From IMG/VR virus record IMGVR_UViG_3300027728_000041, positions 1-35,039 of that record: a DNA stretch of 35,039 nucleotides. One strand, written 5' to 3'. The stretch comes from a virus. A program made the translations under genes and the position numbers. The number at the start of each line of letters is the position of its first letter. The stretch's first letter is position 1. The notes beneath the pieces were generated by a model, which did no database searches, was not told where the DNA came from, and saw nothing but the letters and a program-made list of their open reading frames with translations. Positions 11,413-32,825 of this stretch are shown here, piece by piece.

Positions 11413-11429
11413 GTCAGCTATCGGTCGAC
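11413..11429. promoter_or_regulatory. Operator-like dyad, site 1
   Basis: GTCAGC-N5-GTCGAC, one mismatch to the dispersed dyad GTCARC-N5-GYTGAC. It fills the gap between the capsid stop (11434) and the ribosome-binding site of the adaptor gene, so a bound protein would lie at the translation start or block transcript extension. Confidence 0.5.
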
Positions 11430-11433
11430 AGGC

Positions 11434-12348
11434 TCAGATCGGCGACCCAGTCGACCCAAAAAGGCAACGTGGATCTCCAAAACTGAAGCCAAATCTTTCT
11501 GATGTCTTATACAACATATTACCAGTCCGGAAGTCCGTCTCCATGCCCTTCTTGACCGCCTTCCGCTGCCAGAACATCAGGCCAAGGTCACAGTCGGTCT
11601 TGAGAAACCATGCGTCAGGGTCGACCATGTAGTGGCTGACCATGAAGCCGTCGGGGATGTAGTCGCCGTCCTTGATCGCGTTGATGTCGTTGTTGGCCGT
11701 GCCGACGCGCCCCGTAGTCTTCAGGATGCGCTGCGTGGTGAACGTCTGCTGGCGTGGGATGATCAGCTTCTTCGGCTTGACCACGATCGGGCGGTTGCGG
11801 TCGTTCACGTAGCCAGAGATCTGGATGCACGCGTCCTCCAGGGCCTCTTCGGAGATGTCAGCAGGCGTCGCCAGCGTGTTGCTGTAGACGCCGCCGGAGT
11901 AGAGCGGGTGCGTGGGCGAGCAGAGCGCCTGTTGATCGCCGCCAGTGTAGTTCGAATTGAACGCGTTGTTGAACAGCCCGGCCCCACGAACTTCCTTGGC
12001 ATGCTGCAGGGCCTTGCCCAGCTCCTTGCCGTAGATTTCCGAAAGATCCGCGTAGAGATTATCGTCGATAGCCTCTTCGGTGATCGCGAACGCCAAGGCG
12101 TATGTATAAAAGTCGACACGCGAGGTGTAGCCTTCCGCGCCCTGGTCGAACGTGATCATGCCGCCTTCGGATTTCTCCTGGGCTTCGCCCAGGCCGACGC
12201 GCAACACCATTTCTTCATACGCACGCTTGGACGTGCGCTTCTCAGTGAACTTCGTGTATTCGGGTTCCCAGGTGTCGTAGGCCATGCCGAAGTGGGCATT
12301 AATTCCATCTTGAAGGTCTCGCGCGAATTGCGCACGGGTCATAACCAT
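11434..12348 (-). CDS. Major capsid protein (HK97-fold, Mu gpT-like group)
   Basis: 304 residues. 'RAQFARDLQDGINAHFGMAYD', 'SKRAYEEMVLRVGLGEAQEKSEGGMITFDQGAEGYTSRVDFYTYALAFAITEEAIDDNLY' and the C-terminal 'KTDCDLGLMFWQRKAVKKGMETDFRTGNMLYKTSERFGFSFGDPRCLFGS' are the conserved blocks of phage major head proteins of the Mu gpT-like type (described here in interrupted pieces). It builds the icosahedral shell. AAGGAA lies 7 bases before the ATG at 12348. Neighbours agree: decoration protein upstream, adaptor downstream. No N-terminal protease-cleaved delta domain is evident, consistent with a separate scaffold. Confidence 0.88.
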   Translation of the reverse strand: MVMTRAQFARDLQDGINAHFGMAYDTWEPEYTKFTEKRTSKRAYEEMVLRVGLGEAQEKSEGGMITFDQGAEGYTSRVDFYTYALAFAITEEAIDDNLYADLSEIYGKELGKALQHAKEVRGAGLFNNAFNSNYTGGDQQALCSPTHPLYSGGVYSNTLATPADISEEALEDACIQISGYVNDRNRPIVVKPKKLIIPRQQTFTTQRILKTTGRVGTANNDINAIKDGDYIPDGFMVSHYMVDPDAWFLKTDCDLGLMFWQRKAVKKGMETDFRTGNMLYKTSERFGFSFGDPRCLFGSTGSPI

Positions 12349-12363
12349 TTGAGTGTTCCTTGT

Positions 12364-12380
12364 GTAAGCTGTTGGTTGAC
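12364..12380. promoter_or_regulatory. Operator-like dyad, site 2
   Basis: GTAAGC-N5-GTTGAC, one mismatch to the dispersed dyad. It lies in the 44-base gap before the capsid gene, directly upstream of its ribosome-binding site. Confidence 0.5.
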
Positions 12381-12392
12381 AGGCTGGCGCGA

Positions 12393-13040
12393 TTAGACCG
12401 CGATGGCCATCGCGGCCCCGCCACGCTCATGCTTGACCATCCGCAGCTGCACCAAGGCATACCGCCCCTCACCCGAGAGCGAGTAGCCGATAGTGTCAGC
12501 GGTGTAGGCCGGGTTCACGTTGCGCATTGGTTGCTCCAGGACCTTCTCGATCCGGAACTGGCTGGCCGTGCCGCCAGGGGTGCCGACCGTCTGGTTGGAG
12601 CGGCCAAACACCGTGTCGGGGACTGCGTCGACGAGATCGACGAAGCTGCCGATGTCGGCGCGAGTGATCGTCTGCGAGCACTGGGCTTCGATCAGGATGT
12701 TGGGGTCGTCGTGCACCTGACAGCGCAGCGAGGAGCCGGGCGGGAGAAGGACCGAGCCGGGGATCCAGACCTTGAAATACGGGATCTGGCCATTGGCCGC
12801 GAAGTTCTGGCTGCCGCCGAACTGCCCGCGCGTGGTAATCCAAGCGCCAGCAAAGAAGCCGAGGAGCGCGTCACCGGCTGCGGCCTTCGTGATGCCACCG
12901 GCACCATCTGATTTGACGGCATCGCCGACCGCGATCGAGACAGCGGTGGCGGGGTTGAGAGCGTAGTCATTCAGCTCCTGACCGAGCGCCGACATATGGC
13001 GCGCGATCCGGAAACCAAACGGGTAAAGAGCGTTAGCCAT
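12393..13040 (-). CDS. Capsid decoration / stabilisation-like protein
   Basis: 215 residues. The start 'MANALYPFGFRIARHM' and the following 'ATAVSIAVGDAVKSDG', 'AAAGDALLGFFAGAW' match the N-terminal pattern (PFGF..VRH...G, VGDPVK, D.ILGV..G) of proteins encoded next to the capsid gene in many podoviruses and siphoviruses and usually called decoration or capsid-stabilising proteins. The rest is beta-rich ('PYFKVWIPGSVLLPPGSSLRCQV'). A GAGG sequence lies 11 bases before the ATG. Directly upstream of the capsid gene in the same transcript direction. Confidence 0.65.
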   Translation of the reverse strand: MANALYPFGFRIARHMSALGQELNDYALNPATAVSIAVGDAVKSDGAGGITKAAAGDALLGFFAGAWITTRGQFGGSQNFAANGQIPYFKVWIPGSVLLPPGSSLRCQVHDDPNILIEAQCSQTITRADIGSFVDLVDAVPDTVFGRSNQTVGTPGGTASQFRIEKVLEQPMRNVNPAYTADTIGYSLSGEGRYALVQLRMVKHERGGAAMAIAV

Positions 13041-15072: not shown

Positions 15073-15528
15073 TCAAAGCTCGATGCCGTTGAATTTCAAA
15101 TTCTCGACGTCCGATGGGTCAACCCTGACGTTGAGACTGTCGTCAGTAATCACCACGAAGGTGTGGCCCTTGTACTGGAACCGGCGCGGCTGCTTGCTGT
15201 CGATGATCCAGAGGTCACCGATCTGGGGCCGCTCGTCTTCGGTGATGTCGTAGCTCTCGTAGGCCTTGCCACGGAACACGTGATTGCCGACCGCGACGAT
15301 CTTATAGAGCTGGTGCGTCCAGTTCTGAACGTCGATGGTCTCGTCGGGCAGCATGATGCCGCCCCGGGATGTGCGGCGGATGCCGACCGGCATGGCCATG
15401 ATCTTCCACAGTGGCACCCTGAGCTTGTGCTCCGGGACCGGCGTGTCGATATCGTGGATCAAGCCCTCGGTGTTGATGGCGCTGGCGGTGGCGAGGTGCC
15501 CGGCGGCACGGATGATCTGCTGATTCAT
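15073..15528 (-). CDS. GroES-like co-chaperonin
   Basis: 151 residues. The chaperonin-10 pattern is visible: 'PLWKIMAMPVGIRRTSRGGIMLPDE' with the mobile-loop hydrophobic tripeptide in GGIML (residues 56-60), then 'LYKIVAVGNHVF', 'PQIGDLWIID' and 'GHTFVVITDDSLNVRVDP'. It is longer than bacterial GroES (~97) because of an N-terminal extension of about 35 residues. Phage GroES analogues (T4 gp31-like in role) cap host GroEL so that the capsid protein can fold. No GroEL gene is in the window. ATGA overlap with the gene upstream; capsid genes follow in the same direction, fitting a folding role. Confidence 0.82.
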   Translation of the reverse strand: MNQQIIRAAGHLATASAINTEGLIHDIDTPVPEHKLRVPLWKIMAMPVGIRRTSRGGIMLPDETIDVQNWTHQLYKIVAVGNHVFRGKAYESYDITEDERPQIGDLWIIDSKQPRRFQYKGHTFVVITDDSLNVRVDPSDVENLKFNGIEL

Positions 15529-15794
15529 ACGCGTGCCCCCAGACGGCGGTTGCCGGGCGCGTGGATGCCGTTACGCGAGATCGGCGCACGGGCCTCGTCG
15601 TCCTCGTGGTTCTTGTTGTACTTCGTGTCGAACAGGTCCTTGACCATGATCTCGATCTGCTGTGCCGCAATGATACGGCCCCGCAGGTGCTCGTGACGTC
15701 CGTCACCGCCCTGGCAGGCGATAAGTGCACTGATCTCGGCGTGACGGAACGCCTCGATGGATTTTTTCAGGTCGGCAACAAAGTCTTCCAACAT
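15525..15794 (-). CDS. Small conserved-type phage protein, unknown
   Basis: 89 residues, first gene behind promoter-like motif A. N-terminal helix 'EDFVADLKKSIEAFRHAEISALIACQGGDGRHEHLRGRIIAAQQIEIMVKDL' (given only to show the helical part) followed by a charged, Pro/Gly C-terminus. GAGGGA stands eight bases before the ATG. The 'QGGD..R.EHLRGRI' segment recalls small phage proteins encoded near capsid genes; no function known. Confidence 0.6.
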   Translation of the reverse strand: MLEDFVADLKKSIEAFRHAEISALIACQGGDGRHEHLRGRIIAAQQIEIMVKDLFDTKYNKNHEDDEARAPISRNGIHAPGNRRLGARV

Positions 15795-15877: not shown

Positions 15878-15913
15878 ATTCAGTGCAAAATTTATTGTCC
15901 ACTGATGGTTGAC
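15871..15913. promoter_or_regulatory. Operator-like dyad, site 3, within a larger inverted repeat
   Basis: GTCCAC-N5-GTTGAC at 15897-15913 (one mismatch to the dyad). Together with 15871-15885 it forms an imperfect inverted repeat of about 15 bases around a 14-base AT-rich loop; the left arm is the GGTTGAC part of motif A. So operator and promoter-like element face each other in the gap 15795-15938. No T-run follows, so a simple terminator is unlikely. Confidence 0.5.
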
Positions 15914-18655: not shown

Positions 18656-21382
18656 TTACTGTCCTTGTGATGGATCGTTGCGGAGGTGGTTGAGTTTGTT
18701 GCCGCGCGGCTGCTGCGATTGCTGCTGCTTGATCTGCATGTCCTGCTGAGCCGACTGGGCCTTCATTTGCCCCTCCTGCTCCATCTGCTGACCCTCCATG
18801 GCCATCTTCTGCTGGCCCATGGCTTGTTCCTGCTCCATTGACTGTGCGTCCATGTGCATCTGCTGTTCGGACTGCACGCGCTGCATTTGCATGTCGGTCT
18901 GCATCTGCTGCTCTTGCATCTGAGCCTGACGCTGCTGGGTCTGCATCTCCAGCTCGCTCTTCTGCTGGTCGATCTGCGCCTTCATCTGCGCCTGCATATG
19001 AGCGGTCTCGGCTTTGAGCCGCGCCATCTGCTGCTCGGCCTGTAGCTTGGCCTGCTCGCGCTGCAGCTCGAACTGGTGCTTCTCCTGCTGCATCTGCATG
19101 CCCTGCTGATGCTTCTCGCGCTCGATCTGGAGCTTTTCGCGTTCGATCTGGATCTCGTTCTGGCCCTTGCCGTCTTTGCCCTCCTCGGCTGGAACCGGTA
19201 GCCCAGCCACCTGAGCGAGCGCAGGAGCCATCTGGGCGACAGCCTCCGCGATCTGCTCTGGCGGCGTGTTGCCAGACATCTGACCGCTCTGTGGGTCCAT
19301 ATAACCAGCAGGCGCGCCAAGGCCACGGGCGTGGGTCGCCCAGGCGTAGGCCATATGTTGGCCGATAATCGCAATCGCTGCCGGGCCGACTTGCTTCTGG
19401 ACCTCGGGATTTCCCCCATACTGCGGGTTAGACATAAATGCCCACAGCACCTGAAGGTGCGCGACATGGTTCTGCTCCGGCGTGACCATCACTGGCTTGC
19501 CCAGCATGATCGCCTGGACCTCGCCGATCGGGTCGTAGCTGATTGGTTTGGGGTCTGCTGGCAGCAGCTCGTCGATGTCGGGTACGCGCATCGCCTGCAG
19601 CATCCGCCGGGCAGCGATCTTGATCGGCACCACGCCGGTCTCGACCGCCATCTGGAACACGCCCTGCGCCTGCGCCATGCGCTGCTGCGTCGAAAAGATG
19701 TTTGGGTCCGACACCGGAATAACCGACACGCCGGGCGCGAAGTCGTCGACGTAGACCGTGCGCTGCTGGCCCGACACCTCGTAGGGGTAGCCGCCCTCCG
19801 GCACGTACTTTTGGCACAGCTCGTAGCGCAGGCGCAGCTCGCGCCCGAGCGACGCGTGAGCCATCCGGTGGATAGTCGACATCACCTTCCCACCCTGCTC
19901 GATCATCTGCTGGGTTGTGCCGACCGGCGCGTTTTTGGGGCTCTCGTCGCCGGTCATCAACTCAGTGGTCGCCGTAAACCGCTGCGCGGCTCCCTCAAGG
20001 TGGGCGACCATCTGCATCAGGACCGGAGAGGGCTCCTTGACCGGCAGCGGGAAGAAGGCGTTTTTGAGGTCCTCGGTGGTCGCGTCGACCGGGATCCACT
20101 GGCCCGGCGTCGAGATAAGCCGCTGCCCCTTGATGTTGGCGTTTTTGCTGATGAAGCCGCCCGAGAGCGACGCGGACGCCGCGCTGTCGAGGAGGACGCG
20201 GATCGCGCCGGTCGCTGCCGTCTGAAGTCCGCCGATGCAGTGAAACAGGCCGAGGCCATAGAAGCCCGGCCCGGGGATGTAATCATATTTTTCGATGTAG
20301 ACCTTGCGGTTGCACATCGGGTCGTCTTCGTCCCAGGCGCGATAGATCGCCAACACCTTGCGGCTGGCGCGCTCGATCGACACGACGTAACTGCGTTCCA
20401 AGCCGGTCGGCTCGCCGTTCTCGTCGACGTGGTCGTCGCCCTCCAGGTCGATGTCGATGCAGGTCTCAAAGATCTCGTAGCGGTTCGACTTGTCGTCGCC
20501 ATCGGGTGCGGCGTCGCTCATCTCGTCGTTCGCCGTCATGATCTCGTCGCGCGTCTCGTCGGTCGGCAGATCGATGTCAGCCTTGCGATAGTGCTTGACA
20601 ATCTGCAGGCGGGTCAGCTCGTTTTTCGACTTGAACATGCGGTGCGTGAAGCGCTGCGCAGTCTTGAGGCTGGTGGCCTCGGCAGGCACGATCAGATCAT
20701 TGGCCGACACGTAGATGCCAACGTTGCGCTGCAGGATCGGGTCGCGGTAGGTCTTGCGGAAGCTGTTGCCGTGGAACGGGACATGCCAGAGCAGACGCGA
20801 GGTCTCCTGGATGTAGGCCTCGTCCTCGATCGTCATCTCGTAGTTCATGTACTCGGCGACGCGCTCGGCCCGGGCGTTCTTGTCCTCCGTCTGCGCCCCC
20901 ATCACCTTGCCCTTGCATGGGCCTTCAGGCGGGAACAGCTCGCCCATGGCACGCGCCCAGAACTGGGTGACAGCCTCGATCAGCAGGGGGTGGACGGCAT
21001 TGGACGCGCCAGGGAAGGGGCCGTCGTCGATGTCGCTTTCGATTAACCCCATCATCTCAAGGCCGCGCTCAAATCGCTCACGCCACGGACGCCGCTCCTC
21101 GATGTCGTCCTCGACCATCATGGCGATGTCCTGGCCGAGTTTGTCGAGGTGGTCCTCGTCGAGCACAAGGGCGAGGTTATCGCCGTGGGTTTCGGGGGTG
21201 TCCATCAGGCTCGGCGCATTGAAGCCAGCCTCGTCGACGTTGCCGTCGGCGTCCATCTCAAACGTCGAGTGCAGTGGGTTCTCGCCCTCGCCCAGGTCGA
21301 CCATGATGTCGTTGTCAGGCATCGGCATGCCGAGATCGGCTGCCGTATAGGATTGCTGACGTGTTTGGCCGAGGCGCGGCAT
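18656..21382 (-). CDS. Portal protein with long Gln/Met-rich coiled-coil tail
   Basis: 908 residues, large for a portal. The central part is portal-like: 'RRPWRERFERGLEMMGL', 'FPGASNAVHPLLIEAVTQFWARAMGELFPPEGP', 'RVAEYMNYEM', 'DLIVPAEATSLKTAQRFTHRMFKSKNEL', 'GPGFYGLGLFHCIGGLQTAATGAIRVLLD', 'APVGTTQQMIEQGGKVMSTIHRMAHASLGRELRL'. These fit P22/podovirus-type portals that form the DNA-entry ring and bind the terminase. Residues from about 725 to 890 are an almost uninterrupted Gln/Met/Glu coiled coil, which could extend as a barrel inside the capsid, as in P22. GAGGGA precedes the ATG. Confidence 0.85.
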   Translation of the reverse strand: MPRLGQTRQQSYTAADLGMPMPDNDIMVDLGEGENPLHSTFEMDADGNVDEAGFNAPSLMDTPETHGDNLALVLDEDHLDKLGQDIAMMVEDDIEERRPWRERFERGLEMMGLIESDIDDGPFPGASNAVHPLLIEAVTQFWARAMGELFPPEGPCKGKVMGAQTEDKNARAERVAEYMNYEMTIEDEAYIQETSRLLWHVPFHGNSFRKTYRDPILQRNVGIYVSANDLIVPAEATSLKTAQRFTHRMFKSKNELTRLQIVKHYRKADIDLPTDETRDEIMTANDEMSDAAPDGDDKSNRYEIFETCIDIDLEGDDHVDENGEPTGLERSYVVSIERASRKVLAIYRAWDEDDPMCNRKVYIEKYDYIPGPGFYGLGLFHCIGGLQTAATGAIRVLLDSAASASLSGGFISKNANIKGQRLISTPGQWIPVDATTEDLKNAFFPLPVKEPSPVLMQMVAHLEGAAQRFTATTELMTGDESPKNAPVGTTQQMIEQGGKVMSTIHRMAHASLGRELRLRYELCQKYVPEGGYPYEVSGQQRTVYVDDFAPGVSVIPVSDPNIFSTQQRMAQAQGVFQMAVETGVVPIKIAARRMLQAMRVPDIDELLPADPKPISYDPIGEVQAIMLGKPVMVTPEQNHVAHLQVLWAFMSNPQYGGNPEVQKQVGPAAIAIIGQHMAYAWATHARGLGAPAGYMDPQSGQMSGNTPPEQIAEAVAQMAPALAQVAGLPVPAEEGKDGKGQNEIQIEREKLQIEREKHQQGMQMQQEKHQFELQREQAKLQAEQQMARLKAETAHMQAQMKAQIDQQKSELEMQTQQRQAQMQEQQMQTDMQMQRVQSEQQMHMDAQSMEQEQAMGQQKMAMEGQQMEQEGQMKAQSAQQDMQIKQQQSQQPRGNKLNHLRNDPSQGQ

Positions 21383-21771: not shown

Positions 21772-21772
21772 C

Positions 21773-24206: not shown

Positions 24207-24239
24207 TGTTCCCTCTGAGTTGATCAATTGCGGCGACCG

Positions 24240-24276
24240 TGAGGTTATTCGCTCAAAACGTCAACTCTTGGCTGAC
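24240..24276 (-). promoter_or_regulatory. Promoter-like motif copy F overlapping operator site 4
   Basis: Minus strand: operator GTCAGC-N5-GTTGAC (24260-24276, full match to the dyad) whose right half continues as GTTGACG, seven bases, CGAATAACC (24240-24265), a divergent copy of the late-promoter-like motif. The operator covers the stop codon of the upstream gene (AGT-TGA). The motif ends about 33 bases before the ATG at 24206. This is the clearest place where operator and motif share sequence. Confidence 0.5.
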
Positions 24277-24989: not shown

Positions 24990-25016
24990 GATCTTTTCCC
25001 CTTGATCTTATGTGAT

Positions 25017-25062
25017 GTCAGCTCATAGCTGACTATCTGACGTGTGTCAACCATTAGTTGAC
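25017..25062 (-). promoter_or_regulatory. Sigma70-type promoter overlapped by two perfect operator dyads (sites 5 and 6)
   Basis: Minus strand: -35 TTGACA (25045-25050), 17 bases, -10 TATGAG (25022-25027), preceded by C as in alphaproteobacterial promoters. Dyad GTCAAC-N5-GTTGAC (25046-25062) covers the -35 and dyad GTCAGC-N5-GCTGAC (25017-25033) covers the -10; their centres are 29 bp apart. Both are exact palindromes in their arms. A repressor dimer on each would close this promoter. It reads into the gene starting at 24989. Confidence 0.7.
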
Positions 25063-25094
25063 TAATTCAGATCGCTTTATTCCTGACGGTCACT

Positions 25095-25292
25095 TCAGCG
25101 TTGTAAAACGCTGTCTGGAGGGGTCGCCCTGAAGTCACCGGACTCTTCGTCGCCAGCCATGACGACAAGCACCGCCAAGTCCCGTCCCGTGTGTGCGCAT
25201 TTCGTCTGCACAAGGCCAAGGGTGCCATCGATCGCGGCGAGGATCAGCTGCGCAAACATCCGCTTGCTTAGTTCGCTGGGTTGCTTGCTCAT
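25095..25292 (-). CDS. Small accessory protein, unknown
   Basis: 65 residues from the ATG at 25292, which overlaps the previous stop (ATGA); the longer frame upstream is Arg/His-rich and lies antisense-like over the neighbour. 'SELSKRMFAQLILAAIDGTLGLVQTKCAHTGRDLAVLVVMAGDEE' (outline) shows two helices with a hydrophobic strand; resembles short phage proteins of unknown role. Ends 'RATPPDSVLQR'. Confidence 0.55.
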   Translation of the reverse strand: MSKQPSELSKRMFAQLILAAIDGTLGLVQTKCAHTGRDLAVLVVMAGDEESGDFRATPPDSVLQR

Positions 25293-25489
25293 AGTGCCCC
25301 CACAGTCAGGCCGTCGCCTTCGATGCCGTCGATGATGTTGCCGATGTAGCGAGGCTCGACGACGATGCCGTTTCGGCCCCACGTCTGCGCGTCACTGGGG
25401 ATGTGCTCGTCGACCCAGTCCTCTGCGGCCTCCGTGAGCGCCTGCAGGATGCGGATCGAGCCATGGTTGGTGACAGTAAAGTCGGCCAT
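25289..25489 (-). CDS. Small conserved-type phage protein, unknown
   Basis: 66 residues: 'FTVTNHGSIRILQALTEAAEDWVDEHIP' and 'WGRNGIVVEPRYIGNIIDGIEGDGL'. The pattern NHGS..LL..LTEAA..WV.EH......WG....VEPRY...I is familiar from small phage and prophage proteins with no known role. GGGAG precedes the ATG. Thirty bases separate it from the MarR-like gene, so the two probably share a transcript. Confidence 0.65.
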   Translation of the reverse strand: MADFTVTNHGSIRILQALTEAAEDWVDEHIPSDAQTWGRNGIVVEPRYIGNIIDGIEGDGLTVGAL

Positions 25490-25519
25490 TTTGTCGTCTC
25501 CCAGTTTTGATGCTACCGA

Positions 25520-25921
25520 TCAGGCGGCAATCTTCAGCTCGTCGGTGCGATTGACGCCCTTGGTGAGGTCGATCACCTTTTTGGCGATCTGGTCGATCTT
25601 TCCGGCCTCGGCCTTGCCCTTGTCGGTCAGCGCGACGTCCCAGGCGCGATCGTCGGCCTTGCGACGGACGCGCTTGACGATGTCGTACTCAACCAAGCGG
25701 CGGATGACGTTCGATACCGTCGAGCGGTCGATGCCGGTCGCCTGGATCAGCTGGCGCTGGTTGGGCTTGACGCCTGCCGCCTCATAGTCGGCGATGGCTG
25801 CCACCACGATCGCCTGTGTGTCGGTCAAAACGCAGCGGTGGGATGCCGCCACAAGCTTCCAGGCGAGCGTCGTGACCTGGGCGCGGTTGTGGCGAGCTTG
25901 GATTTCCTTGAATGCAGTCAT
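25520..25921 (-). CDS. MarR-like winged-helix transcription regulator
   Basis: 133 residues with a MarR layout: N-terminal helix, 'LTDTQAIVVAAIADYEAAGVKPNQRQLIQATGIDRSTVSNVIRRLVEYDIVKRVRRKADDRAWDVALTDKG' (outline, about residues 32-105: helix, HTH recognition helix at STVSNVIRRL, wing with R-K-x-D-D-R) and a C-terminal helix for dimer formation. Such dimers bind 16-20 bp palindromes. An operator-type dyad and promoter lie just upstream, so it may control itself and the other dyad sites. AGGAG eight bases before the ATG. Confidence 0.78.
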   Translation of the reverse strand: MTAFKEIQARHNRAQVTTLAWKLVAASHRCVLTDTQAIVVAAIADYEAAGVKPNQRQLIQATGIDRSTVSNVIRRLVEYDIVKRVRRKADDRAWDVALTDKGKAEAGKIDQIAKKVIDLTKGVNRTDELKIAA

Positions 25922-25956
25922 ATTCGTCTCCTGTGAGTTGATCTAATGCATGATCA

Positions 25957-25997
25957 TCCATACAGGACCAACTCCGGTCTGTCAACCGTCAGTGGAC
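25957..25997 (-). promoter_or_regulatory. Promoter of the MarR-like gene with operator dyad (site 7)
   Basis: Minus strand: dyad GTCCAC-N5-GTTGAC (25981-25997, one mismatch) whose right half supplies the -35 TTGACA (25980-25985); 17 bases on is TATGGA (25957-25962). The start site would fall about 30 bases before the ATG. Fits autoregulation of the downstream regulator. Confidence 0.6.
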
Positions 25998-26005
25998 AAA
26001 AAAGA

Positions 26006-27997
26006 TCAGAAGTCGTCGCCGTCGTCGTCATCGACGTCCGAGGCATTGGTGACCGAGCGCCCATAAAGCCTGGGCACATGGCGCGTTTTCTTGTTGGTGC
26101 TGCGCCCGTACAAGCCACGGCCCTCGGTGCGGCGGTCAAATTCGCCGCGCTCAAGGTCTTCTTTTTCGTGCTTGTCCAGCTTGTCGCTGGGCCTATCGAG
26201 CAGGTTGACGTTGCGTGACCAGATCAGGGAGCTGGTGACCGTGTCGGTCCAGTCATCGTGCTTGCCGTTCGGGAATGCGGCGCATTCTTTGATCACGCCA
26301 GCCGTCATTGGGCCGGGCAGGTACCAGACAGAGCCGGAGGCGAGCACCACGGACGCGGCGTGAGCGCGCGGCACCTTGCCGTTGGCCCCAGGCGGGAACG
26401 GCGGCAGCCACTCGACGATGGCCGGGTAGTGGAGACCCTGCTCATCGACGTACCGCGACCGCTCGCGCCGCAGCTCCTGCAGCAGCTGGATGCCGGACGC
26501 TTTCTTCTCGACGATGACCCATTCAGGTCGAAAGAACTTGACGTGTTGCTTGACGATGTCGAACAGGTCGACCGCCTTCACCTTGCCACGCCACGCCCCA
26601 AGCATGATCACCTGCTGCTGAATCGGGTCGGTCTTATCGTCGCTGTCCTTGAGGCGGATCTGGCGCTTGCCCGGTTTCTCCTTGGTGAAGCTGACCCAGG
26701 CCGTCATAGCTGAATAGTCGTTGTCTTGACCATCCTCAAACGCCGTATCGTAGACCAGCCAGCACTGCGCCCAATGCTCTGGGGGCTCGACGTCGCCGGG
26801 TCGGTCCTTCTGCTGTTGCGTTGGATCCGGCTTGCCGTGCGGCCAGCACTTCCAATATTTGCGCAGGAGGATGATACCCTCGCTGGCCGCTGGCTTCTGC
26901 TGGTACAAGCTGTTCCAGGCACGCTCGCCCATGGCGCGGGCCAGCTCGACATAGCGGTCAGTGAACCACTGCGGCCACATCCGCTCGCCCAGGCGGCGAT
27001 TGAGCGGGTCGTCGAGTGCGTCGCAGATCAGCGGGCAGCAGAACACCAACCACCAGCGACCGTCAGTGCCCCTCCAGAGCCCGCTCTGACCCTCCCACTT
27101 TTCGCCAAGTAGGTGACCGGCGGGATCGTCTTCGTGCCACCGCGTCTGGATCAGCAGCACCTTGCCGCCCGGCTTGAGACGGGTGAACAGGTCGTCCTTC
27201 ATCGCCGCGTTGGTCTTCTCGCGGATGATCTCGCTCTCGGCCTCCTCACGGCCCGCGATCGGATCGTCGATGATCAGCAGGTCAGCACGGTTACCGGTGA
27301 CGCCGCCCAGGATACCGACGGCGCGGTAGGTCGAGCCGTTCATCAGCGACCATGCGTCGACCGCTTGGTTATCGCCCGTCAACTGAGTATCCCATTGCGC
27401 GGCATACTTGTCTGACCGGCAGATCGAACGCACCCGGCGACCGAACCGCTTGGCCAGCTCGGACCCATAGCTGGTGCCAATCACGTCGGTGCCAGGGAAG
27501 CGCCCCATGACGTAGGTCGGCGCGATCACGCTGGCGTAAGTCGACTTGGCTGAGCCCGGGCTGAAGAAGAACATGATGCCGTCGGGGACGATGCCCTGGT
27601 GGCCATTGGTGAGCGGCCCCTCGACCGGCATCTCCTCCATCATCCCCTGGACGGCAGACAGGATCATTGCGCCGTGCTCGGGGATGTCGAGTTGTTTGGG
27701 ATAGAACTCCCCCTCGTCGACCTCGTCCTTCTCAAAGTCGTATTCGGGGATCTCGACCTTGACCCCGCTGTTGATCTTCAGCATGTCGATCTGGGCCTTG
27801 CGGGCCAGCATCTTCTGCCGGTCATTCAAGTTCATCTTGCTGGGCGCGCCGGGCACCTCGATGTGCGCCGCGTACTCGACGATGTCGCCCTTGCGCTTGT
27901 CCTTGTGCATCACCTCCAGCGCCTGGATCAGGTCGCGACGCTCCATAGGCGTTAGCTGGCTCAGATCGGCGTTTTCGATGTCGTCGAGGTCCAGCAT
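26006..27997 (-). CDS. terL: Terminase large subunit
   Basis: 663 residues from the ATG at 27997 (one base after the preceding stop; a GTG at 28018 is an alternative). ATPase part: Walker A-like SPGSAKST (about residues 146-153), Walker B LLIIDD (240-245), coupling motif 'TRWHEDDPAG'. Nuclease part: 'VYDTAFEDGQDNDYSAMTAW' with the first Asp, 'VIVEKKASGIQLLQEL', and 'HDDWTDTVTSSL' with the last acidic pair. Together these are the packaging motor and headful or cos nuclease. The end is acidic (DVDDDDGDDF). No small terminase is recognisable nearby. An extended ~100-residue N-terminal region precedes the ATPase. Confidence 0.92.
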   Translation of the reverse strand: MLDLDDIENADLSQLTPMERRDLIQALEVMHKDKRKGDIVEYAAHIEVPGAPSKMNLNDRQKMLARKAQIDMLKINSGVKVEIPEYDFEKDEVDEGEFYPKQLDIPEHGAMILSAVQGMMEEMPVEGPLTNGHQGIVPDGIMFFFSPGSAKSTYASVIAPTYVMGRFPGTDVIGTSYGSELAKRFGRRVRSICRSDKYAAQWDTQLTGDNQAVDAWSLMNGSTYRAVGILGGVTGNRADLLIIDDPIAGREEAESEIIREKTNAAMKDDLFTRLKPGGKVLLIQTRWHEDDPAGHLLGEKWEGQSGLWRGTDGRWWLVFCCPLICDALDDPLNRRLGERMWPQWFTDRYVELARAMGERAWNSLYQQKPAASEGIILLRKYWKCWPHGKPDPTQQQKDRPGDVEPPEHWAQCWLVYDTAFEDGQDNDYSAMTAWVSFTKEKPGKRQIRLKDSDDKTDPIQQQVIMLGAWRGKVKAVDLFDIVKQHVKFFRPEWVIVEKKASGIQLLQELRRERSRYVDEQGLHYPAIVEWLPPFPPGANGKVPRAHAASVVLASGSVWYLPGPMTAGVIKECAAFPNGKHDDWTDTVTSSLIWSRNVNLLDRPSDKLDKHEKEDLERGEFDRRTEGRGLYGRSTNKKTRHVPRLYGRSVTNASDVDDDDGDDF

Positions 27998-27998
27998 C

Positions 27999-28901
27999 TC
28001 AGTCGATCTGCTCGTCACGCGTGAATGGAAGCTGTGTCGGCATGGGGACGCCAGACATGTCTAGGTGAGCCCGTCCATTGATGACGTCGTCGAGCAGCTC
28101 CTCCGGCGACTTGTTCATCGCCAGGGCATTCTCGCGTAGGCGCTGCTCAAACAACTCGTTGAACGTGTGTGGGGTCGTCTTGACGCCGGTCTTGTCGGCG
28201 TTGCCGTACCACGCAGCCGCCTGAGCCTGCCCTGGGGCGAGCCCGAACTTGTCTGCTGCCTTGTGATAGGGCTTTGCCGCGAGGCCGTAGGCAGCGTCTG
28301 TAGGGGCCGACATCCACATCGTTGGGCGCGTCAACAGCTCCTTCATCGACGTCTCGCCATTGGCCAGTAGGTCGCGTGGGCTGTAGTTCTCGTACCCACC
28401 GTGGTCGGCTTGGTAGCGGATCGAGTTGGTCAGGTAGCGCGGATCTTTCTGGGCCATAGACAGCGTCCGCATGGCGTGTGCGTCGACGACGGCCTTAGAT
28501 TGATCGCCTGCCAACGATCGCCCGAAGTGCTCGGTCTTCTGGCTGTCTTTGACGTTGTAGCCCCCCTCCTGGCCGAACTTCTTGCGGCTCAGGATGGCGC
28601 GTGTGTCGGCAGCAACGCCTGAGAAGCCTGCCTCCTTGCCGGATCGGGGTATCTCCTTGCCCTGAGCTAGCATCTTCATGATCTTGGTGGCCTCAGACAC
28701 GTTATTCATGACTGTGTTCTGCGGGCTAGTCGTGCCGACAGCCTGCATGAAGCGAAGGTAGGCGTCGTCCGAGCTGCCTGGGCCTCGATAGAGGTCACCG
28801 AACCGCTCACGGAGTGGTTCGGTGTTGTACCAGTTCATCGAGGCGTTGCGGTTCTCGCCCGACAGCCCACGCTCGACCGCGCGATTGACCTCGTTCTGCA
28901 C
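27999..28901 (-). CDS. C-terminal part of a frameshifted phage protein (DUF7178-like)
   Basis: The open frame of 300 residues starts inside what looks like one longer gene; the coding-like sequence continues upstream of its ATG ('KIGELASSRKVQNEV'). Features: 'LRFMQAVGTTSPQNTVMNNVSEATKIMKMLAQG', 'KTEHFGRSLAGDQSKAVVDAHAMRTL', 'FGLAPGQAQAAAWYGNADKTG' in outline. This recalls the DUF7178 phage family (TSPQ...N...A, ...F...L.GD....VD.H..R, ..QAQAA.W), a helical domain of unknown role. TGA-G-ATG links it to the terminase. Joined with the upstream fragment the protein would have about 500 residues. Confidence 0.6.
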   Translation of the reverse strand: MQNEVNRAVERGLSGENRNASMNWYNTEPLRERFGDLYRGPGSSDDAYLRFMQAVGTTSPQNTVMNNVSEATKIMKMLAQGKEIPRSGKEAGFSGVAADTRAILSRKKFGQEGGYNVKDSQKTEHFGRSLAGDQSKAVVDAHAMRTLSMAQKDPRYLTNSIRYQADHGGYENYSPRDLLANGETSMKELLTRPTMWMSAPTDAAYGLAAKPYHKAADKFGLAPGQAQAAAWYGNADKTGVKTTPHTFNELFEQRLRENALAMNKSPEELLDDVINGRAHLDMSGVPMPTQLPFTRDEQID

Positions 28902-29505
28902 CTTCCGGCTCGATGCCAGCTCGCCGATCTTTTTCCGTGTCGCTGTCTGGTTTCACCTTCACGCGCGACTTGAAGTAGTCGACCTCGGGCAGATTAAGCA
29001 GGTTGTCCGGCGCGACGTCTCGGTGGTGCCCGTAGTCGAAGATCTCGCCGTCCGCCCTCTTGATGGCTGGGGCTGCGACCGACTTGGGTGCCGGGATCGG
29101 GCTGTGGTTACCCATCGGCAGGTCCCAGGTGTCCCCCAGGTCGAATGTGGGCATGTCGCGCCGGGCTGCAGACATGGCGACCGAGCCAGCGGGTGCCTTG
29201 ATGAACGGACTGGCCCCACCAACCAGCTGCGAGATCGCCCCGGAAGCCCGCTCACCGTTTTCGCGCGTTGGGTTGGCATAATACTCGTCAGTGAACCGCC
29301 CGGGCTCCGTCAGGATGCCGGGGATTGCGGGCACGAACTCGCTGTTGTCGCCTCTGCCGTCTGGATTCGCGTATCTGCCGATCGGCAGGACATTCAGCGG
29401 GAACGGTGGCGTCTCGTAAATTTTACCCTCACGACCGCGCGCGCTCTTGGTCCTCTGGTTGCCCTCCAGAAGGCGATTGAAGTCGTCGTAATACGGATCG
29501 CTCAT
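28807..29505 (-). CDS. N-terminal part of the same frameshifted phage protein
   Basis: 232 residues as read, starting MSDPYYDDFNRLLEGNQRTKS. Sequence is normal up to about residue 190 ('NLLNLPEVDYFKSRVKVKPDSDTEKD'); the last ~45 residues are an Arg/Gly/Glu-rich stretch typical of an out-of-frame read and overlap the next frame by 95 bases. Removing one base from the five-base A run (plus-strand T run 28930-28934) joins it to the downstream ORF. The N-terminal part is Pro/Gly-rich with few motifs ('VPAIPGILTEPGRFTDEYYANP'). Operator site 8 lies 10 bases before the ATG and motif C 55 bases before it. Confidence 0.6.
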   Translation of the reverse strand: MSDPYYDDFNRLLEGNQRTKSARGREGKIYETPPFPLNVLPIGRYANPDGRGDNSEFVPAIPGILTEPGRFTDEYYANPTRENGERASGAISQLVGGASPFIKAPAGSVAMSAARRDMPTFDLGDTWDLPMGNHSPIPAPKSVAAPAIKRADGEIFDYGHHRDVAPDNLLNLPEVDYFKSRVKVKPDSDTEKDRRAGIEPEGAERGQSRGRAWAVGREPQRLDELVQHRTTP

Positions 29506-29515
29506 CGCCGTCTCT

Positions 29516-29532
29516 GTCAGCTATGGGTTGAC
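29516..29532. promoter_or_regulatory. Operator-like dyad, site 8
   Basis: GTCAGC-N5-GTTGAC, full match to the dyad. It lies 10 bases before the ATG at 29505, between promoter-like motif C and the gene, where a bound protein would stop a transcript just before the start. Confidence 0.55.
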
Positions 29533-29559
29533 AAGCGCACGCAGCTGTGCAAGCTTGAC

Positions 29560-29587
29560 GCTACTGACATTCGTTTGCTAATCAACC
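29560..29587 (-). promoter_or_regulatory. Late-promoter-like motif, copy C (divergent)
   Basis: Minus strand: GGTTGATT, six bases, CGAATGTCAGTA. It keeps the AAACGAAT core and the GGTTGA part and lies 55 bases before its gene, as copy A does. Its TTGA contains the stop codon of the ORF at 29582. Confidence 0.4.
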
Positions 29588-29791
29588 CGAGAGATCGATG
29601 TGCACCCTGCTGCGCGCACCATACTGCTTTACACGTTCGTCCCCTATCGCCACACGCTGGAGCTTCTCAGGGTGGACAACGAAGGCAGACAGACGGTCAT
29701 CAAGACCTGGGAAAAGTGCGACATCCGCCCCCTCAACATCATCGAAAACCAGCTGCGCATAAGCGGCATAGTCACTGAGCCAGCTGTGCAT
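29582..29791 (-). CDS. Small acidic protein, unknown (uncertain)
   Basis: 69 residues, MHSWLSDYAAYAQLVFDDVEG... ending RSRVHIDLSG. It fills most of the gap between the upstream protein gene (stop 29807) and operator/motif C. First codon positions are rich in G, which supports coding, but third positions are less GC-rich than in neighbours and the ribosome-binding site is weak (AGG nine bases upstream). A plus-strand ORF on the same bases (from 29600) competes. No family recognised. Confidence 0.4.
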   Translation of the reverse strand: MHSWLSDYAAYAQLVFDDVEGADVALFPGLDDRLSAFVVHPEKLQRVAIGDERVKQYGARSRVHIDLSG

Positions 29792-29806
29792 GTCAGGCAG
29801 CCTGTG

Positions 29807-30967
29807 TCAGTCCTCCCTCCACGCAGCGAACGGGTTGACGAAGGCATTCTCAAGAGCCCCAACGTAGGGATCTCCGTGTGGGCGCAGCTTGGGCGCGCCT
29901 TCAAACTGGGCAGCAGGTGACATCCCGATCATTTTTTGGTCTGCGAAGTGCGTCTCAGCGCCTGAGGCCTTGGCGTTGGCCTCTGCGTGTGGCCCGCTGT
30001 TGACCCAACTGTTCTGTCCGCGCGTCTCGGCTGTCATGGTTGGTCTGGCCTCGGGCGAATACATCGCCGAATGGGCACCCCATGCACGCTCCTCGCCGGG
30101 CGCGCGAAAGAACGCATTGCCATGGCCGAAGTGCCCATAGGCGTCGTGCACGGCGCGGAACAGGTCGTTGTAGGTTGCTGGCTGATCGCCGAATGACCGG
30201 CCTGATTGCTGCAGCAAGGGGTGATCGGCGAACGCGGCATCGGTGCCATAACCACCCTCGGTCGGGAAGATCTGGAGCCGCTTATTCTCAGCCAGATCCT
30301 TGTACCCCATCGCCGGGTTCTTGGCGTACGGGTCGATAATGCCGCCGTCTGGCCCCTGCTTCATGAAGTCGAACTCATAGCCCCGGCCCTTGAGCGCATC
30401 AAACTGTCCGAGCGTCTCGTCCGCGAGCGCCTTGTAAGACGCTATGGCTGCTGGGTCATACATCGGCGCAACGTCATACTCATTGGCGATCTGCTTGGCG
30501 CGGTCGCGGTCTAGCGGCTCGAACCGCTCCGGCACCATCGCCTTCTGGCCCCGGCTCTTCGCATAGTCGTCCATTGCATCGATAATGCCGGGGATCGGCT
30601 TGGCCTGGATCGTCTCGCCCGACGGCAGCGTGAACTCCTTGGGCATTCCTGGCACTCGCTCGTAGGGTGCGTGTCCAAGGATCGCCCGCTCCTTGGACAA
30701 GTGCGAGAATGGCGCGCCCAGGCCGCCCAGCATGCCCAGGCCGCCCTCGATAGCTGCCGTCTTGAAGTCGCCGCGCTCAGCTGCCCTCTGCCCGCGATTG
30801 GCCCCCATCGCCGCGCCAACGGGCGGGATCATCTCAGCTAGGTTCCCCAGCTTGCGGCCCCACTCAGCCGTGCTGCGCGTCTCGTCGCCCCCGCCAAGCC
30901 CTTTCGAGATCAGCTCGGCGAACTTCTCACTCCAGCTTGGATCGTAGTTGCGCAGCTCGGCAGCCAT
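29807..30967 (-). CDS. Phage protein with HDxxGH ... ETRGQNSW domain
   Basis: 386 residues from the ATG at 30967 (AAAGG six bases before); the longer frame to 31027 would run through the promoter region. The C-terminal half has a striking conserved-looking block: 'LQIFPTEGGYGTD', 'DLFRAVHDAYGHFGHG' (HDxxGH at 274-279), 'GEERAWGAHSAMYSPEARPTM' (His299) and 'TETRGQNSWVN'-like 'AETRGQNSWVN' (313-323). Spaced His/Asp/Glu residues suggest a metal site. I know the block from large virion or polyvalent phage proteins, function unknown. The N-terminus has an Ala/Gly-rich hydrophobic stretch (about 48-85). Confidence 0.65.
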   Translation of the reverse strand: MAAELRNYDPSWSEKFAELISKGLGGGDETRSTAEWGRKLGNLAEMIPPVGAAMGANRGQRAAERGDFKTAAIEGGLGMLGGLGAPFSHLSKERAILGHAPYERVPGMPKEFTLPSGETIQAKPIPGIIDAMDDYAKSRGQKAMVPERFEPLDRDRAKQIANEYDVAPMYDPAAIASYKALADETLGQFDALKGRGYEFDFMKQGPDGGIIDPYAKNPAMGYKDLAENKRLQIFPTEGGYGTDAAFADHPLLQQSGRSFGDQPATYNDLFRAVHDAYGHFGHGNAFFRAPGEERAWGAHSAMYSPEARPTMTAETRGQNSWVNSGPHAEANAKASGAETHFADQKMIGMSPAAQFEGAPKLRPHGDPYVGALENAFVNPFAAWRED

Positions 30968-30979
30968 CTCAAACCTTTT

Positions 30980-31025
30980 GTCAGATAGCAGTTGACAGCG
31001 TAGTGAATGTCCACTATGAGTTGAC
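30980..31025 (+). promoter_or_regulatory. Divergent control region: promoter with two operator dyads (sites 9 and 10)
   Basis: Plus strand: -35 TTGACA (30992-30997), 17 bases, -10 TATGAG (31015-31020) preceded by C. Dyad GTCAGA-N5-GTTGAC (30980-30996) covers the -35 and GTCCAC-N5-GTTGAC (31009-31025) covers the -10; centres are 29 bp apart, exactly as at 25017-25062. It reads into the plus-strand cluster beginning at 31068. The opposite gene starts at 30967; a weaker minus promoter (TGGACA-N17-TGCTAT) may use the same operators. Confidence 0.7.
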
Positions 31026-31067
31026 ATACACGCTGATCAATCATGCTGATATTCGAAGGAGACTGCA

Positions 31068-31277
31068 ATGCCGAAAGCGACCAGGCCTCGCGTTCTCTAT
31101 CTGGACCAATACGGCAACAAGTTTTTCGCCCGCACCGTCAAGGAGCTTCACCAGCAGATCGGCGGCAAGATCTCCAAAATGTATGTCGACAAGACAGACG
31201 GCACCACCAAGCACGTCGGCTACGTCATCGGCCAACGTTGGTTGACAGCCTACGCCCCAATCGAACGCCCAGCCTAA
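31068..31277 (+). CDS. Small conserved-type early protein, unknown
   Basis: 69 residues, AAGGAG seven bases before the ATG. 'RPRVLYLDQYGNKFFARTVKELHQQIGGKISKMYVDKTDGTTKHVGYVIGQRWLTAYAP' (outline) is a compact alpha/beta protein with basic surface, of a type found in several phages without known role. First gene behind the divergent repressible promoter, so probably expressed early. Confidence 0.7.
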   Translation: MPKATRPRVLYLDQYGNKFFARTVKELHQQIGGKISKMYVDKTDGTTKHVGYVIGQRWLTAYAPIERPA

Positions 31278-31287
31278 GGAGCCTGAC

Positions 31288-31587
31288 ATGAGCAACACTA
31301 AAACTATCGAGATCACCGACTACACCCTAGGCAACCGCTTCCAGACCGCGATCGACGCCCAAGACGCCTGCAACCTGCGTGCCCTGGCCCGCCAATTCGT
31401 GTTCGTCGTCGACGCAGCCATGGAAGAGCTGAGGGACACCAAGGGCACCTGGGATGACCCGGCTGTCGTCCTGTTTGTCAACAAGCTGGAGAGCCTGTGC
31501 CGGTCAGATGACCGCTTCAGCGCCGCGTACAGCGCCTGCATCGAGCGGGCCGAGAAGGTCGCTCAAGACAAATGGGAGGCCGCGTGA
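31288..31587 (+). CDS. Small helical early protein, unknown
   Basis: 99 residues. AAGGAG precedes the ATG. Almost entirely helical: 'LGNRFQTAIDAQDACNLRALARQFVFVVDAAMEEL' and 'DDRFSAAYSACIERAEKVAQDKWEAA' in outline. Its stop overlaps the next start (TGATG). No family recognised. Confidence 0.65.
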   Translation: MSNTKTIEITDYTLGNRFQTAIDAQDACNLRALARQFVFVVDAAMEELRDTKGTWDDPAVVLFVNKLESLCRSDDRFSAAYSACIERAEKVAQDKWEAA

Positions 31588-31844
31588 TGACTTTCCACAG
31601 CAAGACCAAACCGAACGTCGTTTGGAACAAGGAGCGCGGCCTACTCCATATCGAGGTGCCGGGCGGGATCGTGAACATCAACGTCGGGCTCTCACTCAGC
31701 ACCGGCAACAAGGTCACGCGCGTCGAGATCCTGGCCGATGGCGACCGCTACGCAGGTGAAACCCCTTGGTGGATCGAGGGCGAGAAGTGCGTCGTTGCAG
31801 GCGCATGGCGCATCATTCAAGAGCTGGAGAACACAGATGCTTAA
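31587..31844 (+). CDS. Small early protein, unknown
   Basis: 85 residues from the ATG at 31587, which overlaps the stop of the gene before it; GGGAGG lies upstream. An ATG at 31572 is in frame but inside the neighbour. Beta-rich: 'VVWNKERGLLHIEVPGGIVNINVGLSLS', 'KVTRVEILADGDRYAGETPWWIEGEKCVVAGAWRII'. No known motif. Confidence 0.65.
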   Translation: MTFHSKTKPNVVWNKERGLLHIEVPGGIVNINVGLSLSTGNKVTRVEILADGDRYAGETPWWIEGEKCVVAGAWRIIQELENTDA

Positions 31845-32514
31845 AGAACGATACGCTCTGCTGGAGCCCTTCAAGGGCGTCAACGAGCTGGTCAAGGCCT
31901 GGGCACGTGACGTCGGCGAGGATGTCGGCAGCCACGACGCTAACGGGGTCTACAACGGCTACGACTTTGAGGTCGAGGACGTCGAGAACCAGCACCGATC
32001 GGGCTTCATCCCGTTCACCAACGGCGGTGTCGAGGTCGTGCTCTGCGCCACGCTTAGCGCCTGCGATGGCCACGGCAGCGCGCCAACCATAATCCAGCCT
32101 TATCTCGACAGCGCCTACAAAGATGCTGTTGCGGACTGGGATCGACAGCACCATGAGGCGACAGTCGAGCAGATTTACGCCAGCGACCGCGACCACCCGC
32201 TGCGCGAGGACTGGCACGAGCTTCAGTCCGTGTGGCTCCAGGAGGGCGGCACGTTCTTCTTCAAGATCCGTGCGCTGTACTACCACCCTGCCAACAGCTC
32301 GAATGAGAGCGGCGAGGAGGAGGTATTTTTCATGGTCGGCATCAACACCGACTTTGGGTATGGCCGCGACACCATCCCCTGGCTGCGCTGCTATGGCACT
32401 AATCCTCAGCAGACCGAATGGGTCTGGGAGGCGACCGTTAAGGTCGCCGACCTCGACGAAGACCTGATTAAGCAACTGACCGAAGCTGCAATCTTCAACC
32501 TGAACAACGCATAG
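31837..32514 (+). CDS. Early protein of unknown function, acidic
   Basis: 225 residues from the ATG at 31837 (GGAG ten bases upstream), overlapping the previous gene by 8 bases; the longer frame from 31738 lies inside that gene. Acidic and alpha/beta: 'LLEPFKGVNELVKAWARDVGEDVG', 'FIPFTNGGVEVVLCATLSACDG', 'EEEVFFMVGINTDFGYGRDTIPWL', 'ATVKVADLDEDLIKQLTEAA'. The largest protein of the plus-strand cluster. I do not recognise the family. Confidence 0.65.
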   Translation: MLKERYALLEPFKGVNELVKAWARDVGEDVGSHDANGVYNGYDFEVEDVENQHRSGFIPFTNGGVEVVLCATLSACDGHGSAPTIIQPYLDSAYKDAVADWDRQHHEATVEQIYASDRDHPLREDWHELQSVWLQEGGTFFFKIRALYYHPANSSNESGEEEVFFMVGINTDFGYGRDTIPWLRCYGTNPQQTEWVWEATVKVADLDEDLIKQLTEAAIFNLNNA

Positions 32515-32521
32515 GTGACAC

Positions 32522-32824
32522 ATGGCGAGACGATGGAAAAGCATCCAAGACGTGATCGCGGCCAATAGGCAGATCGGGCACCACTGGTTTGACGGCAGCA
32601 CGATGCGCTTTTTCGAAAGCACTATCGAGACCGGCATCCTCAGGGGCTGCTACTTCATCACCAGCGAGACCGGACCAAGCCGCCAGACGCTCTACTCGAT
32701 CCGTGTGGTGCGCAACAATGGCGCGATTGGAACGATCGGCAACTTCAACAGCCACGAAACCGTCGACGACGCAAAGGAAGCCTTGCGCCAACACTTACTT
32801 GAGTTAGAGTCAACTGAGGGTTGA
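32522..32824 (+). CDS. Small conserved-type phage protein, unknown
   Basis: 100 residues. 'SIQDVIAANRQIGHHWFDGSTMRFFESTIETGIL' and 'YFITSETGPSRQTLYSIRVV' follow a pattern (IA.N...G.HWF...TMRFF.S......G.YFITSE) common to small phage proteins of unknown role. AGGTG just before the ATG. Its last codons and stop (GGT-TGA) are part of operator site 11. Confidence 0.7.
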   Translation: MARRWKSIQDVIAANRQIGHHWFDGSTMRFFESTIETGILRGCYFITSETGPSRQTLYSIRVVRNNGAIGTIGNFNSHETVDDAKEALRQHLLELESTEG

Positions 32825-32825
32825 C
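32809..32825. promoter_or_regulatory. Operator dyad, site 11, ahead of the Cro-like gene
   Basis: GTCAAC-N5-GTTGAC, perfect palindrome arms. It ends 19 bases before the ATG at 32845. A TTGACA with TATGAC 17 bases on is present but the -10 would cover the start codon, so the dyad is more likely an operator than a promoter here. Confidence 0.65.

Follow-up and report, generated by a model that had tools for sequence, protein, structure and literature searches.

The virus record IMGVR_UViG_3300027728_000041 of IMG/VR comprises 35,039 bases and was analysed over its whole length, hereafter the window. It harbours a major capsid protein gene, a terminase gene and two small candidate regulators of MarR and HTH_3 type, and many of its gene boundaries carry copies of a 17-bp dyad, GTCARC-N5-GYTGAC, which is the subject of this report. 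A second record, IMGVR_UViG_3300028571_001115 (60,313 bases, referred to as G001), overlaps the window from 6707 to 35039, differing at 8 of 28,333 bases, and extends 32 kb further. The two were joined into a composite of 67,019 bases, numbered in window coordinates. The portion beyond 35,039 had not been seen by the reader who wrote the preliminary description of the window and served as a held-out test region. Gene calling relied on a simple, self-made codon model, and individual start codons may be wrong. A site is regarded as serving a gene when a start codon lies within 200 bp, which gives 28 served orientations over the 25 sites discussed below.

The preliminary description listed eleven copies of the dyad, in excess of chance and at gene boundaries, and each part of this account is borne out. 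All eleven are present, five perfect and six with one mismatch (Table 1); nine touch no called gene, and at 24260 and 32809 the overlap is confined to the last 16 bases of the gene upstream. Scanning the window with up to one mismatch yields 13 matches, compared with 0.42 expected from dinucleotide shuffles: the maximum in 100 shuffles was 2, none reached 13, and the reversed pattern gave no match in the window. The two extra matches, 14565 within a gene and 22506, where no gene is called but an open reading frame (ORF) of 90 residues spans the position, score 8.2 and 7.1 bits with the 23-site matrix introduced below and are background-like.

The held-out region provides an independent view of the same element. 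A matrix built from the eleven window sites picks out 14 held-out sites, all scoring at least 15.4 bits, with 10.4 as the next value. In 12 of them the centre is noncoding, in a composite that is 9.6% noncoding (binomial 5e-11), and the other two, 41287 and 52660, overlap only the final 16 bases of the upstream gene: all 14 lie at gene boundaries, and the dyad is not equally frequent inside genes. Window and held-out region together contain 25 sites in 67 kb. With a matrix made from 23 of them (40325 and 62984 were not included), all 25 score at least 17.1 bits and the next position 12.2; 26 positions reach 12 bits, compared with 0.6 on average and at most 3 in any of 30 Markov sequences. The plain pattern gives 26 matches in the composite, 13 of them beyond the window, with a noncoding centre in 20 (10 of the 13 beyond the window); one match, 39057, sits within a gene and was excluded from the set of 25. 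A de novo search returned GTCAACT-N3 as the top dyad with 7-bp arms in the composite, with 19 occurrences versus 0.12 expected. When only the outer letters are fixed, 18 of 26 17-bp GTCA...TGAC dyads in the composite are noncoding, compared with 0–1 among the 1–11 matches of each of six control outer-letter sets. The sites are thus enriched between genes above chance.

Symmetrizing the 25 sites produces GTCARCY-N3-RGYTGAC, a dyad of 17 bp whose GT and AC ends are kept in 25/25 cases. The six arm positions match in 28, 28, 27, 23, 28 and 25 of the 28 served orientations upstream, and in 28, 28, 24, 23, 28 and 26 downstream. The A that follows GAC towards the served gene, already remarked upon in the window, is found in 22/28 served versus 10/22 unserved orientations across all 25 sites; the TTGAC outer arm occurs in 15/28 served and 13/22 unserved orientations. 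Four dyads (24260, 32809, 41287 and 52660) start one base from a gene end, so that putative operator and stop region are fused there, as they are at 43980 of the related contig G002 described below.

Table 1. Dyads, putative promoters and small regulator genes in the window
Feature	Coordinates	Strand	Remarks
17-bp dyad, 1 mismatch	11413..11429		16 bp before start of gene 10624-11397(-), just past capsid gene; putative roadblock class, no promoter found
17-bp dyad, 1 mismatch	12364..12380		16 bp before major-capsid-protein gene 11434-12348(-); putative roadblock class
17-bp dyad, 1 mismatch	15897..15913		103 bp before gene 15525-15794(-)
17-bp dyad, perfect	24260..24276		54 bp before gene 23667-24206(-); overlaps final 16 bases of gene 24261-24584(-)
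17-bp dyad, perfect	25017..25033		Centre contains putative -10 TATGAG; matching -35 in site 25046
17-bp dyad, perfect	25046..25062		Outer arm forms putative -35 TTGACA; 57 bp before gene 24675-24989(-)
Putative promoter TTGACA-N17-TATGAG	25022..25050	-	Covered by two dyads 29 bp apart
17-bp dyad, 1 mismatch	25981..25997		Between terminase stop (26006) and MarR-like start (25921); TTGACA, with TATGGA at 17 bp
17-bp dyad, perfect	29516..29532		11 bp before ATG of ORF 28807-29505(-); putative roadblock class
17-bp dyad, 1 mismatch	30980..30996		Divergent control region; arm forms putative rightward -35, centre leftward -10 (TGCTAT)
17-bp dyad, 1 mismatch	31009..31025		Centre forms putative rightward -10 TATGAG, arm leftward -35 (TGGACA)
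Putative rightward promoter TTGACA-N17-TATGAG	30992..31020	+	Build as at 25022-25050
17-bp dyad, perfect	32809..32825		20 bp before HTH_3-like gene 32845-33045(+); overlaps final 16 bases of gene 32552-32824(+)
HTH_3-like protein, 66 residues	32845..33045	+	Candidate Cro-like regulator or target
MarR-type winged-helix protein, 133 residues	25520..25921	-	MarR_2 7e-9; 60 bp after site 25981; candidate regulator or target

Two main groups emerge from the distances between sites and start codons. The distance is 42–72 bp in 14 of the 28 served orientations, as expected if the outer arm is a −35 box, and at most 28 bp in 9. A TA dinucleotide lies exactly 17 bp past the TTGACA-like hexamer in 10/28 served orientations (binomial 8e-9), compared with none at either 16 or 18 bp and 0.89 on average at other spacings; the TATG of 32809 contains the start codon, and when this site is set aside the figure becomes 9/27 (binomial 9e-8). 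The two putative promoters of Table 1 are alike in that the −35 falls in the arm of one dyad, and a second dyad holds the −10, TATGAG, at its centre. Flanked by divergent genes, the pair 30980/31009 could act on both strands; if gene 29807–30967 began instead at an ATG at 31027, both sites would fall inside it, and the start at 30967 is used here. A different arrangement is seen at 11413, 12364, 29516 and 41287, which stand 11–16 bp before start codons within co-directional gene runs. Promoter scans found none at the first three and none was seen at 41287. Of 99 genes, 97 follow a site in an unbroken run, which is a weak argument, as most genes run one way.

The gene content offers a candidate binder beyond the window. 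A CI-like protein of 223 residues, encoded at 62124–62795(+) of the composite, matches the phrog_4 transcriptional repressor (1.5e-28) as well as HTH_3 (2.9e-13) and Peptidase_S24 (1.3e-10), both above the Pfam cut-off, and displays the lambda-type layout of an N-terminal helix-turn-helix (HTH) and a C-terminal S24 domain. The divergent gene 61585–61923(−) shows weak YdaS/Cro matches below Pfam cut-offs and a match to the phrog_35 repressor (2e-5). Site 61954 and a weaker one at 61972 (9.7 bits) are located between these two genes, and sites 62871 and 62984 separate CI from the rightward genes that follow. None of the dyads with the 40 best matrix scores falls within the 135 bp ahead of the CI start, and CI could therefore be made while the rest is shut. 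A site is found directly upstream of each of the three smaller regulator genes: MarR-like, HTH_3-like and, at 31 bp, Cro-like. The HTH_3-like product scores 20.2 bits against a Pfam cut-off of 23, measured on the longer ORF 32821–33045, and further family searches assigned it to no family. The phage also encodes an integrase (65445–66950 of the composite), whose C-terminal domain is of MUG113/T5orf172 (GIY-YIG-like) type, and a ParB_N protein (38359–39015) in which no DNA-binding domain was matched. A second, weak tyrosine-recombinase match is present at 51587–52603. The lysogeny-like or timed shut-off state anticipated in the preliminary description thus finds a counterpart in temperate functions: the CI-type HTH and S24 repressor, the integrase and the weakly Cro-like gene. 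Its proposal that 32845–33045 or 25520–25921 encodes the repressor fares less well: each of these genes is downstream of a site and resembles a target, and both are less likely candidates than the CI-like protein.

The capsid and portal proteins are distantly related (29–45%) to those of Roseobacter phage CRP-901, Pelagibacter phage HTVC027P, Caulobacter phage RW and phage DSL-LC04. The description of CRP-901 and CRP-902 assigns them a strictly lytic cycle without lysogeny genes (PMC10149686). Judged by its predicted proteins, the phage studied here differs from both in carrying a CI-like repressor, an integrase and a weakly Cro-like gene. Closer relatives are available as three fragments: G002 (44,848 bases), G029 (19,404 bases) and G031 (19 kb, also L088). 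G030 equals G002 over its full length and was left out as a second lineage. The terminase, portal and capsid proteins of G002 are 50%, 55% and 71% identical to those of this phage, and the contig has its own dispersed dyad, GTCWRTT-N3-AAYWGAC, with 11 matches at up to two mismatches; since the pattern was derived from the first sites of G002, the count is no blind test. Nine of the 11 have noncoding centres in a genome that is 8.3% noncoding; 43980 lies one base from a gene end and 39025 within a gene. G029, with portal and terminase at 65%, contains a perfect match to the motif of this phage at 13625, a partner at 13653 and other dyads of the form GTCAGG-N5-CCTGAC, which occurs three times versus 0.07 expected, always in noncoding sequence. 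Its 13625/13653 pair copies the promoter build: TTGACA is followed 17 bp on by TATACC in the centre of the second site.

Certain places are shared among these genomes. A dyad stands just past the terminase stop in this phage (25981), in G002 (34419) and in G029 (13625), that is, in both relatives that cover the place. The gene downstream of 24260 has homologues preceded by a site in G002 (62 versus 54 bp) and G029 (52 versus 54 bp), as does that of 11413 in G002 (14 versus 16 bp). Generic 17-bp GTCA...TGAC dyads are noncoding in 4/5 cases in G029, 4/9 in G002 and 1/2 in G031, compared with 1/20 in five related contigs from bacterial genomes. The relatives vary the inner letters, while the outer letters and the 17-bp length are constant. 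G031 has only two noncoding matches, 16598 (13.1 bits) and 3030 (11.3 bits). The latter (L267, 3030–3046) stands alone at a gene boundary as a perfect dyad of 17 bp, GTCAAGTCGGACTTGAC, and may represent another letter set.

In wider searches, Megablast of window positions 20000–34000 against phages returned no match, and a scan by capsid alignment gave 80 loci at 43–48% identity. Of 20 further viral contigs that encode a related terminase, 12 had 1–5 matches, a background-like level (reversed control 0–1 each), in a comparison that says little as most of the contigs are distant. The paired-promoter pattern was found in three stretches of viral contigs: two are this phage, and the third, L268, has one 17.1-bit dyad and no gene related to this phage. 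A de novo search in loci of at least 9,000 bases had nothing similar in its top list. Ten TGCGCAG-N3 dyads are packed within about 400 bp of a Rhizobiales metagenome-assembled genome (MAG) contig (L156:5830–6250).

Taken together, these data favour, with a probability of about 0.7, the view that the dyads are the operators of a single phage-encoded dimeric repressor, most likely CI, in a dispersed immunity system of operator/stoperator kind belonging to a temperate phage. In a lysogen, a CI dimer would occupy each of about 25 sites across at least 67 kb. Where the outer arm acts as a putative −35 box, bound CI would block promoter binding by the host RNA polymerase, and at the two paired putative promoters the second dyad would also cover the −10. 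Sites 11–16 bp before start codons would probably act, like L5 stoperators, as roadblocks to RNA polymerase arriving from upstream. Silencing would extend to the Cro-like, HTH_3-like and MarR-like genes, whereas the dyad-free region at the CI start would allow CI to be made while the remainder of the prophage is shut.

A number of observations weigh against this interpretation. Binding by CI is a prediction from sequence, and the binder could be another phage protein. TA at 17 bp is also present in 3/22 unserved orientations, and this phage shows just two paired putative promoters. A strict scan for the Escherichia coli-type sigma-70 consensus over 24000–33100, which demands the final T of the −10, found no promoter at any dyad and two matches elsewhere versus 2.2 expected; the proposed −10 boxes mostly have no final T, so that the case for the putative promoters is one of phasing. 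Conservation of positions among relatives is partial: apart from the dyads past the terminase stop, homologous served genes have a site in only 3/7 comparisons, one of which (G029 site 14318, 13.7 bits) was added by hand. No site was found at the homologue for 11413 in G031, for 12364 in G002 and G031 or for 15897 in G002, and at E 1e-4 the fragments contain no homologue of the remaining served genes. No array is present in the 19 kb of G031, the relative with the most similar capsid protein (75%). Blastp of CI against the called genes of G002 and G029 detected no CI, nor did a Pfam scan of 10 G002 genes. De novo dyad searches in 50,000 bases each of CRP-901, HTVC027P, RW and DSL-LC04 yielded no comparable set, the best scorer being a GC-rich dyad in RW (10 versus 0.56, coding status unchecked), and the five related contigs from bacterial genomes (94, 80, 60, 60 and 53 kb) have no such array. 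Finally, the CI-like protein aligns weakly with lambda CI (E 0.04–0.2), and in this alignment the S24 serine is kept and an arginine falls at the position of the catalytic lysine: SOS induction is uncertain, and induction may bypass self-cleavage. The estimate of 0.7 is nevertheless retained, since it is built on the held-out sites and the phasing of TA.

Alternative binders have to be considered against the same evidence. The dyads might be read mainly by the MarR-like, HTH_3-like or weakly Cro/YdaS-like protein, which would time the closing down of early or late genes in the lytic cycle instead of maintaining lysogeny. MarR proteins and small HTH dimers also bind palindromes, the three genes lie directly downstream of a dyad as genes of autoregulated repressors do, and the first two were the regulators put forward in the preliminary description. 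Yet a site is also found in the region between CI and the Cro-like gene, the phage has both CI and an integrase, and a site before each regulator gene would be expected anyway under a master repressor encoded elsewhere; this alternative is accordingly unlikely, if worth keeping in mind. The ParB_N protein, whose homologue in G029 has a dyad upstream, raises the prospect of a ParB/KorB-like global regulator engaged in partition or plasmid-style control, in the manner of KorB of RK2, which binds dispersed operators. We regard this as most improbable: half of the served orientations place the site at a −35-like distance from the start codon, only the ParB_N domain was matched, and the dyad is unlike parS.

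The remaining explanations dispense with a phage repressor. The TTGACA of the outer arm is a sigma-70 −35 box with TA at 17 bp, and the dyads could be host-factor targets or simply similar strong promoters. A promoter, however, has no need of the upstream arm, yet this arm is as well kept as the downstream one; no promoter is seen at 11413, 12364 and 29516; and it is the inner letters that vary between relatives, whereas the outer letters and the 17-bp length stay, all of which makes this account very unlikely. RNA hairpins, terminators or stability elements would fit dyad symmetry at gene ends and the four sites that overlap the last 16 bases of a gene. In only 5/25 sites, however, are all six arm pairs complementary, the G002 halves (GTCTGTT and GTCAATT) do not fully pair, no run of five T occurs within 30 bases past any of the 28 served orientations, and terminator scans of 11300–12500 and 24000–33100 located none at a dyad. 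The poor pairing and the absence of T-runs speak for half-sites read by a protein and against an RNA hairpin, an idea that is scarcely credible.

Dispersed-operator immunity is known mainly from mycobacteriophages, P1, phiC31 and SPbeta, and the repressor-operator reading invites comparison with these systems. Cluster A phages such as L5 and Bxb1 are reported to carry 20–30 repressor sites genome-wide, at promoters and in short intergenic gaps, with a specificity that varies between relatives; the L5 sites are 13 bp long, asymmetric, oriented with transcription, mostly off promoters and bound by a monomer (PMC6550527, PMC9283540). The L5-like character assigned to the dyads in the preliminary description survives in the presence of 25 sites in 67 kb at gene boundaries, operator-like and promoterless ones alike, for which a single dimeric regulator is inferred. 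It does not extend to the sites themselves, which are 17-bp symmetric dyads with both arms equally kept and many at a −35 position, nor to the candidate repressor, which is a lambda-type HTH_3 and S24 protein of phrog_4. Since the site is symmetric and the candidate repressor of another type, the system does not belong to the L5 family.

Likeness to the other systems is equally incomplete. The CIRs of phiC31 are 17-bp inverted repeats at many early intergenic places and are bound by the repressor, but phage and repressor are unrelated to those described here. Classical CI repressors act at few, clustered operators. The lambda/P22 switch is matched by a CI-like HTH and S24 protein, a divergent weakly Cro-like gene and site 61954 between them, and differs from the arrangement here of about 25 dispersed sites. 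Clustering is also observed in a Parvibaculum MAG contig with a related portal (G022 C158, L163–L167), which has four TTCAGT-N3 dyads, at 58455, 58471 and 58489 and, apart from these, at 56358. Phage P1 has 22 dispersed C1 operators of 17 bp (PMC8546580), alike in dispersal and length, but asymmetric and of another sequence. The repeat of cluster O (Corndog), TGTTCGG-N3-CCGAACA, has the same geometry of 7-bp arms and 3-bp spacer with other letters: 34 copies of 17 bp are described and a dimeric binder is suggested, about a third are coding, most lie away from predicted promoters, no stable lysogens were recovered and its authors considered transcriptional regulation unlikely (PMC4351075). In SPbeta, the master repressor MrpR, of tyrosine-recombinase fold, acts on SPBRE, a 15-bp repeat that ten named genes have in their promoter regions (PMC10516654); one master repressor on a repeated element is the common trait, whereas motif length and repressor fold differ. 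The CtrA sites of alphaproteobacterial phages, TTAA-N7-TTAA (PMC9437464), differ from the dyad.

Among the open papers listed, judged by titles and the beginnings of abstracts, no report of dispersed operators was found for this phage group, and such switches, otherwise described in other phages, appear to be new to it as far as could be found. If the CI interpretation holds, a lambda-type CI candidate with dispersed operators is present in a relative of phages described as lytic. A broader and more tentative conjecture, to which we give somewhat less than even odds, is that an S24 repressor silences the whole genome of a podovirus of the CRP-901/HTVC027P kind through about 25 mixed operator and roadblock sites, and that relatives keep some of the places and re-letter the inner half-sites, so that site set and repressor would shift specificity together. 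Relatives that keep places and change letters would then form a natural series for the joint change of a repressor and some 25 sites. The sites also mark a testable set of putative promoters in an uncultured, probably alphaproteobacterial, phage.

A few further features of the composite deserve mention. A GcrA-like cell-cycle regulator gene (61031–61543) adjoins the Cro-like gene; together with the related portal (41%) of the Parvibaculum MAG contig, it suggests an alphaproteobacterial host. The genes 48279–48734 and 49035–50381, considered as an operator-free pair expressed in the lysogen, were rejected because the intervening sequence partly reads as coding and the start call is probably wrong; padloc gave one match (E 0.023) and a plasmid search none. 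A TolC-type outer-membrane-efflux gene (PF02321) adjoins an HlyD-type membrane-fusion gene at 42965–45860, a combination that is to our knowledge unusual in a phage, and the two are flanked by operator-like sites at 42943 and 46861.

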